A DNA stretch of 27,766 nucleotides, taken from a virus. Made by a program: the position numbers and the translations under genes. The stretch spans positions 1 through 27,766 of IMG/VR virus record IMGVR_UViG_3300028592_000072; one strand, given 5' to 3'. Position 1 is the stretch's first letter, and each line of letters begins with the position of its first letter. This document shows, piece by piece, positions 11,548 to 27,766 of the stretch. Under the pieces are notes generated by a model. The model saw nothing but the letters and a program-made list of their open reading frames with translations, did no database searches and was not told the DNA's origin.

Positions 11548-12139
11548 TACTTCCTTGCGGTGCGCTTTGCGGCGGCTTTCCTACTGAATGCTTCGTCCTC
11601 TTTGGCTTTGCCTTCGGCGTTCATGCAGGCAAGAACAGTCATGTAGGCTTTGACGGGGACGTGGTCGATCTCTGTGTAGGGGACGCCCATCGCCTGGGCA
11701 ACCTTCCAATCGACGTACTCCCGGGGCATCTGGCCGCGCCCCGTTCTAAGGGCTTGGTAGATCCCCTGCTCTAGGCTTTTGGGACCTCTTGGTCCTGCCT
11801 GATTGCGGCCATGATCCTGTCGAGCAGGACTTGGGGAACGTGCTCGTCGAAGGTTTCGACGGTGATCGGATAGGGCTTGTCGTCGTCGTCGAGGTAGTCC
11901 CAGGAGACGATCAGGCTTTGCAGGTCCGCGCTGACTTCCTTCTTGACGGTTTCGAACTTGGCTTCGGCTTCCTCCTCGGACAGCCCTGCGATTTCGATCC
12001 CGCTTCCGATGGTCAGGAACTTGCGAAGAAAAGCCCGGGTCATGATGCCCGGGCGGTAGCTGACGTTCAGCTTTTCGCCGAACACGTCGACCTCGACGGT
12101 CTGGACGTGCTCGCGAAGCTGCGATCTTTTAAGCGGCAT
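11547..12139 (-). CDS. Tail assembly chaperone, long -1 frameshift product (gpGT-like)
   Basis: Reading the chaperone frame from 12139 to the slippery site CCCAAAA (11783-11777) and slipping back one base gives a continuous 197-residue protein. It is 121 residues of the upstream frame plus 76 residues encoded to 11547, starting SLEQGIYQALRTGRGQMPRE. The second part also contains an internal ATG (11729) but has no good ribosome site there. Two-product tail chaperones made by frameshifting are known for lambda G/GT and many siphophages. The gene pair lies exactly between tail tube and tape measure, as in those phages. The C-terminal part is strongly basic at its end (SRKAAAKRTARK), likely the tape-measure-binding T-like part. 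Confidence 0.88.
11771..12139 (-). CDS. Tail assembly chaperone, short product (gpG-like)
   Basis: The 122-residue product has an N-terminal beta segment (TVEVDVFGEKLNVSYRPG, about 14-31), a helical middle rich in acidic residues (GLSEEEAEAKFETVKKEVSA) and the segment SWDYLDDDDKPYPITVETFD. This resembles tail assembly chaperones of siphophages. It ends two codons after the slippery heptamer (C-CCA-AAA-GCC-TAG). It would be made in excess over the frameshifted form and coat the tape measure during tail assembly. The next gene upstream is the tail tube, 7 nt away. Confidence 0.85.
   Translation of the reverse strand: MPLKRSQLREHVQTVEVDVFGEKLNVSYRPGIMTRAFLRKFLTIGSGIEIAGLSEEEAEAKFETVKKEVSADLQSLIVSWDYLDDDDKPYPITVETFDEHVPQVLLDRIMAAIRQDQEVPKA
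11777..11783 (-). other. Programmed -1 ribosomal frameshift site CCCAAAA
   Basis: On the minus strand the zero frame reads GTC-CCA-AAA-GCC-TAG, so the heptamer C-CCA-AAA is in the exact X-XXY-YYZ phase needed for simultaneous slippage. Slipping -1 opens the frame that runs to 11547, where the tape measure starts. Downstream there are GC-rich elements that could stimulate slippage (GCCCT pairing with GGGGC about 25 nt on, or GGGGC with GCCCC further on), but no single stable structure stands out. Confidence 0.88.
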
Positions 12140-12146
12140 AAGCCTC

Positions 12147-13430
12147 CTAGAGTGCGGTGTTGGTCGTGTCGACGACGATCTCCATGAAGCCGCCCGAGAG
12201 TTCCGAAGTCGGGACCGGGATCAGTTCCATGGTGTTCGAGTAAACGTCGTTGTTGTCCCCCCTCTGCGGAGCCGCCATCTTGCAGCCCATGGTGATTTTG
12301 AGGACGTATGGGAAGTTGGCCTCGATCTCATCCTGCTCGACGACGAACCGGACGATCTTGGTCGCACCGGCGCGCAGTTCCTCTAGGAGCGCAAGGCTCG
12401 TCGAGTTGTGCATGAGCCGCAGGTTGATCGAGAACGCCAGGGCCTTTTCGACGATTGCCGAGAATGACGTCTCGCGGCTGTCCAGGGTGAAGTACGGGGT
12501 GAAGCGGTCCCCAACGCCGAACTCAAACATGTCTGCACGGTCGAGCTGGGTCAAGCCGCCAACCGTGTCGCCGATGTAGACGTCCGGATAGCGCGGGGAG
12601 ATCGGGATGCAGTCGAGCCGGGTCGGTGCCGAACCCGCCGTGGTGGTGGTGACGCCGGCGCCGCCGCCAGGACCGGTCAGGCCGCCCGTGTTCATGGTCA
12701 TCAGCGCGACGTTCTGTTGGCCGAGGTCGTTCTTGAACTCGACTTGCCACTGGTCGGCTGCGGGCTTGGTGACCGAGACGTCGTCGAGGCCGATGTTCGA
12801 AAGCGCCTCAAGCGCAGTCTTCAGCGTGGATGCGGACGCATCGAAGGCGATATTGCCGGTCGTCTGCCCGTCGAACGTGAGGGTGAAGGTTCCGGCAGAC
12901 GCGCCGTCCACGTCGACCAGTTGCAGCTCGTTGCCGCTCAGGATGACGTCGGACTCGTCTAGTTCCTGCCCGAGGACCGATCCGGTGAGGACCGAGCCTT
13001 CGTTGCTGAAACTCATCGAGATCGCGTTGAACACGACGTAGGTCGCCTGGGAAACCCCCGCATCGCCGCCCTTTTGGACGGTGTACGTCTTGGGATTGTC
13101 CGGACGCCTTGCGCGCGGTGTCCAAGTCCATCGGCGGGTGTTGGTCGCACCGCCAGGGGTCTCGATCTCGGCGGTCCCGAAGATCGAACTGAAGATGTAC
13201 GGGAGCGATAGGAAGCCCGGGGCTCCGTTGACTTCGCCGTCCGTCCACTCCTTGCGGACGACGACGCCCTCGGCGACCTTCGAGCCGTAGGGAACGACCG
13301 GATCGACGGGGATTTGGGGACCGAGCTCGATTCCGAAGTCGCCGATCTGCTTCAGCGCAGGCACGGCTGTCCCGGGAGTGGTCTCCACGCCAAGATAGAT
13401 GCCTTCAAATACTGAAGCGCGTTCTGCCAT
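12147..13430 (-). CDS. Major tail tube protein with an inserted beta domain
   Basis: The 427-residue protein starts ASVFEGIYLGVETTPGTAVPAL, typical of large tail-tube proteins of siphophages and GTAs, and ends LIPVPTSELSGGFMEIVVD. Residues about 167-266 look like an inserted module (AGTFTLTFDGQTTGNIAFDA, then ALEALSNIGLDDVSV, then a Gly/Thr-rich linker). I have seen this module type in surface-exposed virion proteins; that is memory, not comparison. A Shine-Dalgarno AGGAG lies before ATG 13430. The tube should be a hexameric ring stack. At 427 residues it is longer than the 200-residue core of simple tubes, consistent with one added surface domain. Confidence 0.85.
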   Translation of the reverse strand: MAERASVFEGIYLGVETTPGTAVPALKQIGDFGIELGPQIPVDPVVPYGSKVAEGVVVRKEWTDGEVNGAPGFLSLPYIFSSIFGTAEIETPGGATNTRRWTWTPRARRPDNPKTYTVQKGGDAGVSQATYVVFNAISMSFSNEGSVLTGSVLGQELDESDVILSGNELQLVDVDGASAGTFTLTFDGQTTGNIAFDASASTLKTALEALSNIGLDDVSVTKPAADQWQVEFKNDLGQQNVALMTMNTGGLTGPGGGAGVTTTTAGSAPTRLDCIPISPRYPDVYIGDTVGGLTQLDRADMFEFGVGDRFTPYFTLDSRETSFSAIVEKALAFSINLRLMHNSTSLALLEELRAGATKIVRFVVEQDEIEANFPYVLKITMGCKMAAPQRGDNNDVYSNTMELIPVPTSELSGGFMEIVVDTTNTAL

Positions 13431-24110: not shown

Positions 24111-24309
24111 CTTGGTTCTGCTTTTCCAACACGTCGGCGAGTTTGTTGATCGCCCCGGTCAGGTTCTTGGATTCGACTTGCGCCTGCTTCGAGAGCGCGT
24201 CTTGGTGGCGCGCCGTATTGACCATCACAACGGTCGTGTAAATCGCGTTGCACAGCCCGACCACCAAGGCGATCAGCGCCATGCGGATTGCGCCGGAGTT
24301 CTGCCTCAC
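24076..24309 (-). CDS. Single-pass membrane protein with coiled tail (spanin-like layout)
   Basis: The 77-residue product has a transmembrane segment near the N-terminus (about 10-30, MALIALVVGLCNAIYTTVVM) and a charged helical C-terminal part (HQDALSKQAQVESKNLTGAI, then LADVLEKQNQDATAKRTSK). This layout is that of an inner-membrane spanin or a small pinholin-like protein. It starts by a 4-nt overlap (ATGA) with the gene before it and overlaps the next gene by 35 nt. Membership in the lysis cluster is sure; the exact role is not. Confidence 0.65.
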   Translation of the reverse strand: MRQNSGAIRMALIALVVGLCNAIYTTVVMVNTARHQDALSKQAQVESKNLTGAINKLADVLEKQNQDATAKRTSKGD

Positions 24310-24617
24310 CGCGTTTTCTCCAAGTCCCTCACACGCTCCCGCAGTTCGTTGATTTCCGTGATTTGGGTTGCGAGCTTGGTGATTTCCTTGCCCTGCTCGT
24401 CGATCTTGGGCTCGATCTTGTCAAAGCGCAGCTCGACGCGGCTGACGCCCTCTTTGGCGTCGTCCACCGCACGAAGCAGGGAGTACGCCGAGCCGATCAC
24501 GGCGACGACGATGCAAGCCGCGCTGATGAGCGTTCCCGCGCTGATTTCGGGGTTCCAGCGAAACGGCGGGTTGGGTTGCGGACCCCGTCGCTCGACTCCC
24601 CCGTACTCGTCGCTCAT
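24306..24617 (-). CDS. Membrane protein with C-terminal coiled coil, lysis cluster
   Basis: The 103-residue protein has a polar, Pro-rich N-terminus (MSDEYGGVERRGPQPNPPFR), one transmembrane helix (about 26-45, TLISAACIVVAVIGSAYSLL) and a long coiled coil (SRVELRFDKIEPKIDEQGKE then ITKLATQITEINELRERVRD). The topology resembles phage lysis-accessory membrane proteins (spanin- or holin-associated). It begins by a 4-nt overlap with the endolysin stop, and the next gene begins 4 nt inside its own stop. The open frame upstream is antisense-like and ignored. Which of the three membrane genes is the holin cannot be decided from sequence. Confidence 0.65.
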   Translation of the reverse strand: MSDEYGGVERRGPQPNPPFRWNPEISAGTLISAACIVVAVIGSAYSLLRAVDDAKEGVSRVELRFDKIEPKIDEQGKEITKLATQITEINELRERVRDLEKTR

Positions 24618-25192
24618 CGGCCGCTCCAGAGCGGCAAGCCGCAATCGTTGGCCATTTGGACGACCGGGAAGTTCTTCGGGTCGGTTTTGCGGCCGGGGCT
24701 GACAATCGCATGCGTGGTCAGGTGCTTGAGCGGCAGGACTTCCCGAAGCTCGAGGATCAGGTCGAGGCAGGCTTTGTACTGGGCCGCCGAGTATCCGTCC
24801 TTGCCGTCGTTCAGGTTCACGAACGAAATCCCGACGCTGTACGGGTTGACCGAGCACCCGGCGACGAACTTGCCAACCCTGCGCAGACTGCGGTTTAGTG
24901 CGTTGTACGGATACTGCGCCCTGCTGACTCCCCTTGCCTGCTCATGGGGCCCGTAGGAACTTCCGGCATGGTAGGCGGCTCGGCTGTACGGCACCAGTTT
25001 GCGGATCAATCCGTCGCTCTCTCGCTGGTCCTCGACGATGTAGTGGTAGCTCAGCCGTCCGACGACGAGCGCCTGAAACGCGCCCTTGAAGGTCGGCCCA
25101 GCTGTGGCGTGGAGAACTACCGTATCGACTTCGACCCCTGCCGGCCTTGCCGACGAGTACTTTGCCAGGCTGTAATCGAGGTTGATCGTCAT
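24614..25192 (-). CDS. Endolysin: N-acetylmuramoyl-L-alanine amidase (Amidase_2)
   Basis: The 192-residue protein is a single Amidase_2/PGRP-type domain. The zinc ligand H28 is in VVLHATAG, a second conserved histidine is in SYHYIVE (H50), and the third zinc-ligand region is H161-AIVSPGRKTDPKN (H161, K169, D171). A YNALNRSLRR/ISFVNLNDG middle is typical. No cell-wall-binding domain, signal peptide or SAR helix is seen, so release should need a holin from the adjacent genes. It is the first gene after a 443-bp hairpin-rich gap; an intrinsic terminator U-tract ends five bases before its ATG, and there is no clear Shine-Dalgarno outside the hairpin. The amidase motif begins about 20 residues in, so no shorter start is likely. 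Confidence 0.92.
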   Translation of the reverse strand: MTINLDYSLAKYSSARPAGVEVDTVVLHATAGPTFKGAFQALVVGRLSYHYIVEDQRESDGLIRKLVPYSRAAYHAGSSYGPHEQARGVSRAQYPYNALNRSLRRVGKFVAGCSVNPYSVGISFVNLNDGKDGYSAAQYKACLDLILELREVLPLKHLTTHAIVSPGRKTDPKNFPVVQMANDCGLPLWSGR

Positions 25193-25197
25193 GGCTC

Positions 25198-25236
25198 AAA
25201 AAATCCCCGGCGCGTTTCTTCGGAGGCAGCCGGGGA
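25198..25236 (-). terminator. Intrinsic terminator abutting the endolysin start codon
   Basis: On the minus strand TCCCCGGC (25236-25229) pairs perfectly with GCCGGGGA (25211-25204) across a 17-nt loop and is followed at once by six T residues (25203-25198). Only five bases (GAGCC) separate the U-tract from the endolysin ATG. No promoter can fit in between, so late transcription from upstream must read through this element, or a conditional structure must form. Confidence 0.8.
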
Positions 25237-25409
25237 ATGTCAGTCTCTTTGATCCTTGGCTCTTGGGCCAAGTTGTATTGCCGCCTCGTCTCGGATACCG
25301 GCATCCAAGCAGGTATGAGGGCATCGTCGCCGCTGCTGGAGGCATGGCGGGATTCCCAAGGTGTCGAAGTGTGTCGGGTCGAGAGTTGGCGGCAAACCGT
25401 GAAATCGGG

Positions 25410-25434
25410 AGCCCCCGCCGATGGAACGGGGGCT
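25410..25434. other. GC-rich hairpin without U-tract
   Basis: AGCCCCCG (25410-25417) pairs with CGGGGGCT (25427-25434) over a 9-nt loop containing CCGATGG. There is no U-tract on either strand. Its loop shares the heptamer CCGATGG with the terminator-like hairpin at 25477-25512, and both stems begin with AGCCCC. The likeness suggests two copies of one RNA element or two binding sites for the same factor. Confidence 0.6.
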
Positions 25435-25476
25435 TGTCCGTTGGAGGATATGCGATTACCTGAGCGTCGGCTTTCC

Positions 25477-25512
25477 AAAAGAAAAGCCCCGGAACCGATG
25501 GCTCCGAGGCTT
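25477..25512 (-). terminator. Intrinsic terminator, probable end of the helicase-side transcript
   Basis: On the minus strand AAGCC-T-CGGA (25512-25503) pairs with TCCG-G-GGCTT (25493-25484), with a T-G step in the middle and a 9-nt loop, followed by TTTTCTTTT (25485-25477). It lies about 125 bp after the stop of the 188-aa gene, where the minus-strand early block would end. Confidence 0.75.
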
Positions 25513-25559
25513 CGAGTGCTCGCGTCAGGCGCAAGTATCTCCGCTAGGATGATACGTCG

Positions 25560-25612
25560 TTGAACCTGGGAAAGTGACGGCAAAAATTGCTGTTTCGACC
25601 GCACAGGTTCAA
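25560..25612. repeat. 9-bp inverted repeat TTGAACCTG / CAGGTTCAA
   Basis: TTGAACCTG (25560-25568) is inverted as CAGGTTCAA (25604-25612), 35 bp apart, just after the 188-aa gene. Perfect arms and wide spacing look more like paired protein-binding half-sites or a long-loop RNA hairpin than a terminator: on the minus strand the T-run precedes the repeat. A -35-like TTGAAC is present but no good -10 at 17 bp on either strand. Role unknown. Confidence 0.45.
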
Positions 25613-25635
25613 AAAAAGTCTGAAACTTGTGGAAC

Positions 25636-26202
25636 TTAGCCCGCATTTCTGAGCCCCGCGTCCCAAAGCGAGGCCTCGACGATGGTCTCGGGCTCCCAAT
25701 CGATGATCGCCTCGCGCACTGCCGGCCGAATCACCCTCAGCCTGGACTTCTTGCACCAGTTTTCCAGGCTCCTGCCCTTGGGGACGATGTTGACCTCCCC
25801 GACCAAGGCCCGGTACTTGAAATCCTTGTCGGCGCGTTGCCAGACGTACGAGTGCTCGGCAAGGTGCCTGAACCTGCGCTGAACCGTTCGGATCGCCACG
25901 TCGACGGTCAGAAACATGAAGGCTCGGACGTCGGGATCGTCGACCGCCCGATTCGTGACGCTGACCCTCGGACCCGAATACAGCTCGATCGGCACTCCCG
26001 CCTCGTAGCCGTATCTGGCGTCGAACACCTCGATCCACTCCTCGATCCGAGTGTTCAGCCGACGCTCCTGGTTGCGCAACTGCGCCTCGAGCCTGGCAAG
26101 CATCACCGCGTTCGGCAGCTCGTCTTCGGGGGACCTCCCGCGAAGCGTCTCCCCCCAAACACCCAGGTACAAACCGATCACCCGCTCGTTGACGAAGATC
26201 AT
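25636..26202 (-). CDS. Hypothetical protein, 188 aa
   Basis: The protein is not recognised. It has a charged helical middle (RLEAQLRNQERRLNTRIEEW, about 37-56), a beta/helix pattern (DVRAFMFLTVDVAIRTVQRR), and a basic C-terminal third (KGRSLENWCKKSRLRVIRPA) ending WEPETIVEASLWDAGLRNAG. No catalytic motif, membrane segment or zinc motif is clear. A purine-rich GGGGGAAGG lies directly before ATG 26202. It follows the helicase gene by 54 bp and precedes a terminator, so it is likely the last gene of the replication-side transcript. The basic content suggests nucleic-acid contact, which is weak evidence. Confidence 0.7.
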   Translation of the reverse strand: MIFVNERVIGLYLGVWGETLRGRSPEDELPNAVMLARLEAQLRNQERRLNTRIEEWIEVFDARYGYEAGVPIELYSGPRVSVTNRAVDDPDVRAFMFLTVDVAIRTVQRRFRHLAEHSYVWQRADKDFKYRALVGEVNIVPKGRSLENWCKKSRLRVIRPAVREAIIDWEPETIVEASLWDAGLRNAG

Positions 26203-26256: not shown

Positions 26257-27540
26257 TTAAGCCTCGGCATACGGATCGTAGCCCTCCTCGACGTACTTGA
26301 CCTGAGCGCCCAGGAACTTGACCCCGAAGCTTGGTTCTCGGTCGTGCCGGTTCTTGGTGACGGCGATCTTTCCCTCATTCTCGTTTTCCTTGCGCCGCAG
26401 TTGGATCACGAGCGCGGCGTTGTCTTCCCACTTGATCGAGTCTTTGGAGCGCCAGGCGCCCCGCAGGTTTGGGTCCATGGAGCGTTGCGACCCGATGACG
26501 ACGGCGATGCCGGTTTGCTTGACCAGGTCGTCGACCATGTCGGCGCAGTAGTCTTGGCTGCGGGTGTTGTTTTCGAGCTTTCGGTTGGTGGTCAGCTTTT
26601 GGGCGTAGTCGATCCCGAGCCAGTCGATACCGAGGGTCGTCCTGGCGTCGTGCGCCCATGCTACGAGGCTCTCGATCGAGCGGTCGGTCCTGCCCTTTTG
26701 CCTCGACTCGTAGATCGGGATGTTCATCGCCTTGACGACTTGGCAGGCTTCCTCGAACGCGATTTGCTCGAGCACGTTCTTTCGCGGCTCGTCGTAGCCG
26801 CAGAGCGATTTGACCTGCCTGCCGATCACTTGGTCGGCCGTCATTTCGAGCGTGGCGAGCGCCGGTTTGAAACCCGCACGGTATGCGGTGATCGCCGAGT
26901 CGACGAGCACTCCGGTTTTGCCAGAGCCGCGGGCGCCCATGACCACGGCGTATTCGCCGAAGTACCAGCCCGAGCCCTTGCAAGCCGAGTTGAGCGCCTG
27001 CCACGGCGTCGGGATCCCGGGAGTCTTTGCCCCGAGCTGGTTGAAGTCGAACTCACCGGACATGACGGTGTCGGTTCCGATCTTGGGCAGGTTGCGTGCA
27101 ATTCCGAAAGCCTTGGCCAGAATCGCCTCTATGTCCTCGGCCTGGTCGCACATGGTGACCACCGCCCTTGCCCTTGCCCTGACCGACCGGATCGTTGCAA
27201 AACCCATGACCATCGAGGCGTGCGTCTTGACCATCGCCGAGCTGAAGCTTTCGGCCTCGATCCCGTCGAGCAGCATGGTCTCGGTGTCGCCGAGGTTTCC
27301 CTTTGCCTTGAGCCTGGCGCGCATGGCGTTGACGTCGGGAAGGATCCCGTCGTTGACCATGGCGATCAGTTCTGACGCGACGGTTTGGTGGAACGCCGAG
27401 AAGAACGCAGAGGCCGGGACGTTGATCGCAAACCACCGGGACATCGCATCGCCGTGCAACGCTCCCCCGAGCAGCGCGGTTTCGAGACGGTCGTCGAACA
27501 GGGCTTCCCGCTCGTAGTCGTGCCCAATGTCCACGGCCAT
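26257..27540 (-). CDS. dnaB: DnaB-like replicative helicase
   Basis: The 427-residue protein has the two-domain DnaB plan. The N-terminal helical domain (LETALLGGALHGDAMSRWFA, about 20-80) is followed by the RecA-like C-terminal domain. This has Walker A GARGSGKT (about 202-209), the family motif ALATLEMTADQVIGR with its catalytic Glu, Walker B WLGIDYA (about D311), VVIGSQRS as the glutamine sensor loop, and KNRHDREP near the end. It would load at the phage replication fork and unwind 5'-3'. ATG 27540 is preferred to a GTG four codons earlier, which overlaps the previous gene by 11 nt. A primase is not in the window. Confidence 0.92.
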   Translation of the reverse strand: MAVDIGHDYEREALFDDRLETALLGGALHGDAMSRWFAINVPASAFFSAFHQTVASELIAMVNDGILPDVNAMRARLKAKGNLGDTETMLLDGIEAESFSSAMVKTHASMVMGFATIRSVRARARAVVTMCDQAEDIEAILAKAFGIARNLPKIGTDTVMSGEFDFNQLGAKTPGIPTPWQALNSACKGSGWYFGEYAVVMGARGSGKTGVLVDSAITAYRAGFKPALATLEMTADQVIGRQVKSLCGYDEPRKNVLEQIAFEEACQVVKAMNIPIYESRQKGRTDRSIESLVAWAHDARTTLGIDWLGIDYAQKLTTNRKLENNTRSQDYCADMVDDLVKQTGIAVVIGSQRSMDPNLRGAWRSKDSIKWEDNAALVIQLRRKENENEGKIAVTKNRHDREPSFGVKFLGAQVKYVEEGYDPYAEA

Positions 27541-27541
27541 G

Positions 27542-27766
27542 CTAAGCGCCACCTTCGACCGCCTTGAGGGGTGGCTCGTGCTTTTTCCAGGTCGGCCCGA
27601 AGTTCAGCCAGACTTGGCCGGTGTCGGTGTCCCTGATGTCGGCGTCGCAGTTCTCCTCGTCGATCTTGAGCAGGACGGCGTTGGCGACTCCATCGGGGAG
27701 CGGGGTTCCCCAAGGCAGGACGAAAGTTTCCGTGAGGACCGTGCCTTTTCGCAAAGGGGGTAAGGG
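27542..27766 (-). CDS. Hypothetical protein, 3' part (runs off the window)
   Basis: The frame is open to the right edge of the window, giving 74 residues with no stop, so the real start may lie outside; a TTG at 27754 is a possible but unsupported start. The sequence is mildly acidic (LLKIDEENCDADIRDTDTGQ) with GQVWLNFGPTWKKHEPPLK at the end and no recognised motif. Its stop is 2 nt from the helicase ATG, so the genes share a transcript. Confidence 0.55.
   Translation of the reverse strand, partial: PLPPLRKGTVLTETFVLPWGTPLPDGVANAVLLKIDEENCDADIRDTDTGQVWLNFGPTWKKHEPPLKAVEGGA

Follow-up and report, generated by a model that had tools for sequence, protein, structure and literature searches.

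Gene content, att site and putative host

The DNA analysed here, hereafter the window, is the 27.8-kb record of an uncultivated virus, and nearly every gene in it is on the minus strand. Along that strand the order is a DnaB-like replicative helicase, which forms the upstream replication unit (26257–27552), a gene for a 188-aa protein (25636–26202), a gap of 443 bp (25193–25635), an Amidase_2 endolysin (24614–25192), small genes, terS, terL and portal. Prohead protease, major head protein (MCP), tape measure and tail genes follow. The endolysin was identified by Pfam (PF01510, 62.8 bits) and by PHROGs, and it heads the late operon. The remainder of the operon spans 724–24617 on the minus strand, with terS assigned by position only, and ends with an AGCCCTC/GAGGGCT hairpin and a U-rich tail at 700–683. 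The Amidase_2 match starts at residue 21 and an in-frame TGA lies two codons upstream of the endolysin ATG at 25192, so this ATG is the only start that keeps the whole domain.

Two plus-strand features bear on lifestyle and host. The C-terminal end of an integrase (2–148) shares 50% identity across 52 aa with a prophage integrase from Armatimonadetes bacterium 55-13, and an att core corresponding to a tRNA-Leu 3' end (161–222) matches the same genome at 100% over 62 nt. Several further Armatimonadota genomes carry this core at 93–98% identity. In strain 55-13 the core is present in two copies, 65 kb apart, which bracket a prophage with a terL 44% identical to that of the window. Since late phage genes come after the core in the window, it is best read as attP, and we infer that the phage is temperate and has its host among the Armatimonadota. 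Judged from these sequences, the integrase end and the tRNA-Leu core show the phage to be temperate, and the host is probably a member of the Armatimonadota, a phylum for which we know of almost no phage biology. One cultured member of it, Fimbriimonas ginsengisoli Gsoil 348, harbours an excising prophage of 45.5 kb (PMC4072686). The 55-13 prophage (L084; G016 C6:740056-805130) occupies ∼65 kb between its two tRNA-Leu att copies, and a second viral record, IMGVR_UViG_3300024981_000013 (65,030 bases), corresponds to it, down to the terL identity and the terminator.

Two intrinsic terminators before the endolysin

The 443-bp gap is the sole gap of more than 100 nt in the minus-strand gene array, the gene-poor left end apart. 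It is noncoding, as none of the ORFs running across it scored as coding in a codon-usage scan, and it folds better than shuffled sequence (z = −5.3). Codon usage also led us to dismiss one long ORF across the gap (25646–24942) as a chance frame.

The hairpin at the endolysin end of the gap, T3 (25204–25236, minus strand), pairs TCCCCGGC with GCCGGGGA in an 8-bp stem around a 17-nt loop, with a folding energy of −17.7 kcal/mol. The outer stem is perfect over its 8 bp and the loop is weakly structured. A U6 tract follows directly (25198–25203), so that the minus strand reads TCCCCGGC-[17 nt]-GCCGGGGA-TTTTTT-GAGCC-ATG, where GAGCC is the 5-nt spacer before the start codon. An earlier note on this DNA had described a perfect 8-bp stem whose U6 ends five bases before the endolysin ATG, and the sequence confirms it (U6 at 25203–25198, ATG at 25192). 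The second terminator that it placed within the same 443 bp was also found and is the stronger of the two (−23.2 versus −17.7 kcal/mol): T1 (25477–25513, minus strand; stem-loop 25513–25483) has a 14-bp stem, a 3-nt loop and the tail UCUUUU.

With strong intrinsic terminators defined by dG ≤ −14 and a U score ≥ 4, T1 and T3 are the only two on the late strand of the window. Among 300 dinucleotide shuffles of the gap, ten contained at least one strong terminator and none contained two or more; in none of the 300 did a strong terminator end within 15 nt of the gap end. In a simple consensus scan, weak terminator-like sites were no more frequent than expected (9 versus 7.9 ± 2.7); the scan omitted T3 because its loop limit was 8 nt.

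Only 5 nt separate the U6 tract from the ATG, which bears out the earlier view that no promoter fits between them. Transcription of the endolysin therefore has to pass T3, and it is well supported that late transcription, in the case of the endolysin, runs through a terminator. The lysis and virion genes as a whole are probably expressed only if polymerase passes a stop.

The layout in relatives

No close relatives of the endolysin, helicase, portal or 188-aa protein were found in viral contigs, nor of the portal in genome contigs, and in the collections searched only terL retrieved relatives, all of them distant. By tblastn in phage records, the endolysin and the 188-aa protein had no match, and terL and the helicase had distant matches only.

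Two groups of these relatives share the gene order of the window, from a replication-type gene through an unknown gene and a gap to endolysin, terS and terL. In L006/L005 (terL 47% identical, M15-type endolysin) an 11-bp stem followed by U6 precedes the endolysin, with the hairpin ending 29 nt before the ATG. In L003/L007/L022 (terL 50–64%, Rv2525c glycoside-hydrolase-like endolysin) the distance to the ATG is 21 nt from the end of a hairpin of −17.7 kcal/mol that has a U run. L003 and L006 were tied to the window via terL similarity and gene order, not via gap sequence. The layout that the earlier note had suggested seeking before the endolysins of relatives is thus seen in two independent syntenic groups. 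It recurs next to unrelated endolysins, and its recurrence in syntenic relatives argues for function.

Other relatives are less uniform. In the 55-13 prophage the last gene upstream of the GH25-like endolysin is followed by a T1-like terminator, and a G+C hairpin lacking a U tract precedes the endolysin itself. In L111 and L112, which are decayed prophages, a terminator lies 32–43 nt before the first small gene preceding terL, and no U-tract terminator adjoins the endolysin in L013 or L108.

These comparisons also bear on the idea that the main effect of T3 is on translation or mRNA stability, with the hairpin hiding a Shine–Dalgarno (SD)-like element and delaying the endolysin, and termination secondary. 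The only SD-like GGGG (−16 to −13) is in the 3' arm of T3, where its pairing probability is ∼1, no other SD-like element occurs at normal spacing, and G+C hairpins without a U tract stand before the first late genes in L084 and L013. However, a perfect U6 directly after a G+C stem is the signature of termination, and in L006 the SD falls outside the hairpin. We regard a chiefly translational role as unlikely.

Frequency of start-adjacent terminators

Across 65 non-duplicate records, a strong terminator lay within 40 nt upstream of 11 of the 265 co-directional starts with a gap of at least 40 nt. Among co-directional gaps of at least 150 nt in related phages, ∼11% have a start-adjacent terminator, often before capsid genes, and adjacency alone is therefore not unusual. 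Terminators inside such gaps do gather towards the downstream start, with 11 of 29 within 45 nt of it as against the 15% expected under uniform placement. The gaps that open late operons are not special in this respect: in the 35 records with a largest gap before terL, a terminator was within 45 nt in 4/35, compared to 6/55 of the other gaps of at least 150 nt, with no enrichment, and we lowered our claim for the window on this account. Promoter-sized gaps with a terminator at their start-codon end are a recurrent phage layout and no peculiarity of the window.

Six of the start-adjacent cases come before capsid genes, with a strong terminator 18–39 nt before the start (L020:13173, L033:11391, L067:12544, L021:13996, L068:11790 and L032:4646). 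The genes downstream encode major head protein or head protease and are inside an apparent late operon. In these distant phages the terminators may be a second read-through gate or a means of tuning expression.

Promoter-like sites and the operon-boundary explanation

The top promoter-like site of the gap is GTCACT-18-TATCAT (25549–25578, minus strand, −10 at 25554), identified by consensus match, with a predicted start at ∼25542. It ranks 8 of 27,760 on the minus strand and is upstream of both terminators; counted from the predicted start, T1 begins at ∼+30 and T3 at ∼+307. In L003 and L006 the top promoter-like sites are likewise at the beginning of the gap (strand ranks 13 and 4), and the last terminator is at ∼+138 and ∼+214, respectively, compared to ∼+307 in the window. 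As a rank this high would arise by chance in a gap of equal length with a probability of ∼0.1–0.2 per phage, these sites are suggestive only. The candidate promoter falls within the gap's first ∼100 nt.

The sequences TTGAACCTG...CAGGTTCAA (25560–25612, either strand) form a perfect inverted repeat of 9 bp. One of its arms overlaps the spacer of this candidate promoter, possibly by chance, and the repeat is a putative operator or factor-binding site. On the plus strand the repeat also gives rise to promoter-like sites that score highly (−10 at 25582). It is possible that it represents a divergent promoter or an operator.

Promoter-like sites close to the T3 hairpin score poorly, and in the interval from the endolysin to terS no such site is better than the gap's own (≤7.3 versus 9.4). 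The earlier note had offered two routes to the late operon, read-through or a promoter further down in the lysis cluster. Passage of T3 stands for the endolysin; for the second route, no better site was found downstream as far as terS.

The second route is at the centre of the main rival to antitermination, in which the tandem T1/T3 simply end the replication operon, the endolysin lives on leak-through, and the main late promoter is in the lysis cluster. T1 is ∼120 nt past the stop codon of the 188-aa gene, like a normal operon end, and in L084 too the last early gene is followed by a T1-like terminator. Promoter-like sites exist downstream at 24219, 23827 and 23185, but these are weak, again scoring 7.3 or less against 9.4. 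Moreover, in L003 and L006 the sole strong terminator adjoins the endolysin, with the length of the gap between it and the upstream stop codon. We consider this explanation possible, though doubtful.

RNA structure of the leader

Between the two terminators lies a further hairpin, H2 (25410–25434, minus strand), with a 10-bp G+C stem and a 5-nt loop and without a U tract. T1 and H2, both G+C hairpins, have an 18-nt direct repeat (78%) in common. Downstream of H2 a long-range RNA domain (25278–25395, minus strand; fold z = −3.8) is formed by the arms TTGCCGCC and GGCGGCAA, which pair 25395–25380 with 25293–25278. The domain is absent from the relatives examined.

The earlier note had seen natural targets of a Q-, N- or put-like mechanism in these stems and had also raised attenuation; neither attenuation nor a put-like RNA fared well. 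In leader attenuation, alternative pairing of a riboswitch or ribosome type would control T3. The leader is strongly structured (z −5.8), and one arm of the domain, GAGGCGGC, is a possible pairing partner for GCUGCCUC in T3. That pairing, however, occupies chiefly the T3 loop, and pairing between the T3 5' arm and the leader is at the level of shuffles (fraction 0.57; 0.29 with the loop). Since the same is true of L003, L006 and L111, antiterminator pairing does not exceed chance in any of the four leaders, and we think attenuation extremely improbable.

A put-like RNA, either the T1/H2 pair or the 25395–25278 domain, might instead act in cis and need no phage protein, as put does in HK022, and the two similar hairpins in tandem would suit such a role. 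T1 is itself a terminator, though, and strong leader structure is confined to the window, as the leaders of L003, L006 and L111 are structured as shuffles are (z −0.4, −1.3 and −0.2). A search of the gap against Rfam returned only a chance snoRNA match, which counts against attenuation and a put-like RNA alike. We therefore find a put-like element very unlikely.

A candidate antiterminator gene

The 188-aa gene adjoins the gap in what would be the 'Q position' of a lambdoid phage, and it is a candidate antiterminator by that position only. It has no match above threshold in PHROGs, Pfam or NCBIfam; its best sub-threshold Pfam match is HVO_A0261_N (16.7 bits, cut-off 35). A single-sequence AlphaFold model had a pLDDT of 36 and its fold was unusable. 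Family searches detected no N-, Q- or ArpU-type gene in the window, a fragment that lacks most early genes, and PF06530 was not found in the phage records of relatives. The earlier statement that no antiterminator gene is visible in the window holds for known families. It is otherwise weak, because most early genes fall outside this fragment and the 188-aa ORF sits immediately upstream of the gap. By position, we take the 188-aa gene to be the most likely source of a read-through factor.

Comparison with known control regions

Phage Q proteins act at a promoter-embedded site and let RNA polymerase pass tR' (PMC6606751). The window resembles the pR'-tR' region of λ and 21 in that the replication unit is followed by a noncoding leader with intrinsic terminators (T1 and T3) before the first late gene, and then by lysis genes and terS-terL-portal-head-tail (terS by position only). 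A small gene of unknown family also sits where Q does in λ. Unlike λ and 21, the window has two terminators, the second abutting the endolysin ATG, whereas tR' and S of λ lie a few hundred bases apart. No Q homologue was detected in the window by family searches, and a QBE and a pause element were not identifiable.

AlpA of Pseudomonas aeruginosa binds between −10 and −35, at a site placed much as that of Q, and lets RNA polymerase read past the terminators that precede PA0807 (+26 and +247) and alpB (+54) (PMC7969949). Here too intrinsic terminators come just before the first gene, with those of PA0807 at positions similar to the predicted +30 and +307 in the window, and lysis genes are among the targets (alpBCDE and PA0807-PA0829). 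The window differs in its phylum, in having a whole virion operon downstream and in that its promoter is only predicted. Family searches of the 188-aa gene (PHROGs, Pfam, NCBIfam) detected no AlpA homologue. Since no Q or AlpA protein was detected, we do not claim membership in either family, and it is by analogy that the gap may work like a Q- or AlpA-type control region.

The putRNA of HK022 is ∼70 nt with two stem-loops (PMC9378689), and the leader of the window likewise has tandem stem-loops before terminators. In contrast to put, one of these stem-loops is a terminator, there is no Rfam resemblance, and the leader structure is not conserved; put also acts on early genes, whereas this leader precedes late ones.

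Proposed control of the late operon

We propose that the gap is a control region of the late operon at which a phage factor brings about processive antitermination at T1 and T3, a reading to which we give about even chances. A leader RNA would start from a promoter within the gap's first ∼100 nt, and RNA polymerase would by default stop at T1 or, failing that, at T3 just before the endolysin ATG, keeping the lysis-packaging-head-tail operon off. Late in infection or upon induction, a phage factor, likened to Q at pR'-tR' of λ and 21 and to AlpA at alpB and PA0807, would modify the polymerase so that T1 and T3 are passed and the whole late operon is transcribed. By its position, the 188-aa gene would be the most likely source of the factor.

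To our knowledge, the known Q-like antiterminators (λ Q, 21 Q, AlpA and Xp10 p7) are mutually unrelated, and proteins of this kind are therefore hard to spot by sequence. A terminator abutting the first late gene could instead serve as a mark for the control region and for candidate factors in uncultured phages; in the window it singles out one short gene, that of the 188-aa protein. The window would present a familiar phage switch design in an unstudied phylum, with no known switch protein found. If confirmed, terminator-gated late expression would extend well beyond the phages in which it has been worked out. A bolder version holds that new families of promoter-loaded processive antiterminators are represented by the 188-aa protein and by the unrelated proteins that occupy its position in relatives, and that terminator-gated late operons are the rule in temperate Armatimonadota phages. 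It is speculative and we judge it rather unlikely, but if the new families are real, this would be the first antitermination switch from the Armatimonadota.

Elsewhere in the window, a terminator-like hairpin, GCCCGGGCATCATGACCCGGGC-TTTTCTTC, was seen at 12054–12033, near the start of a 122-aa gene (11771–12139) and after a gene that ends at 12147.
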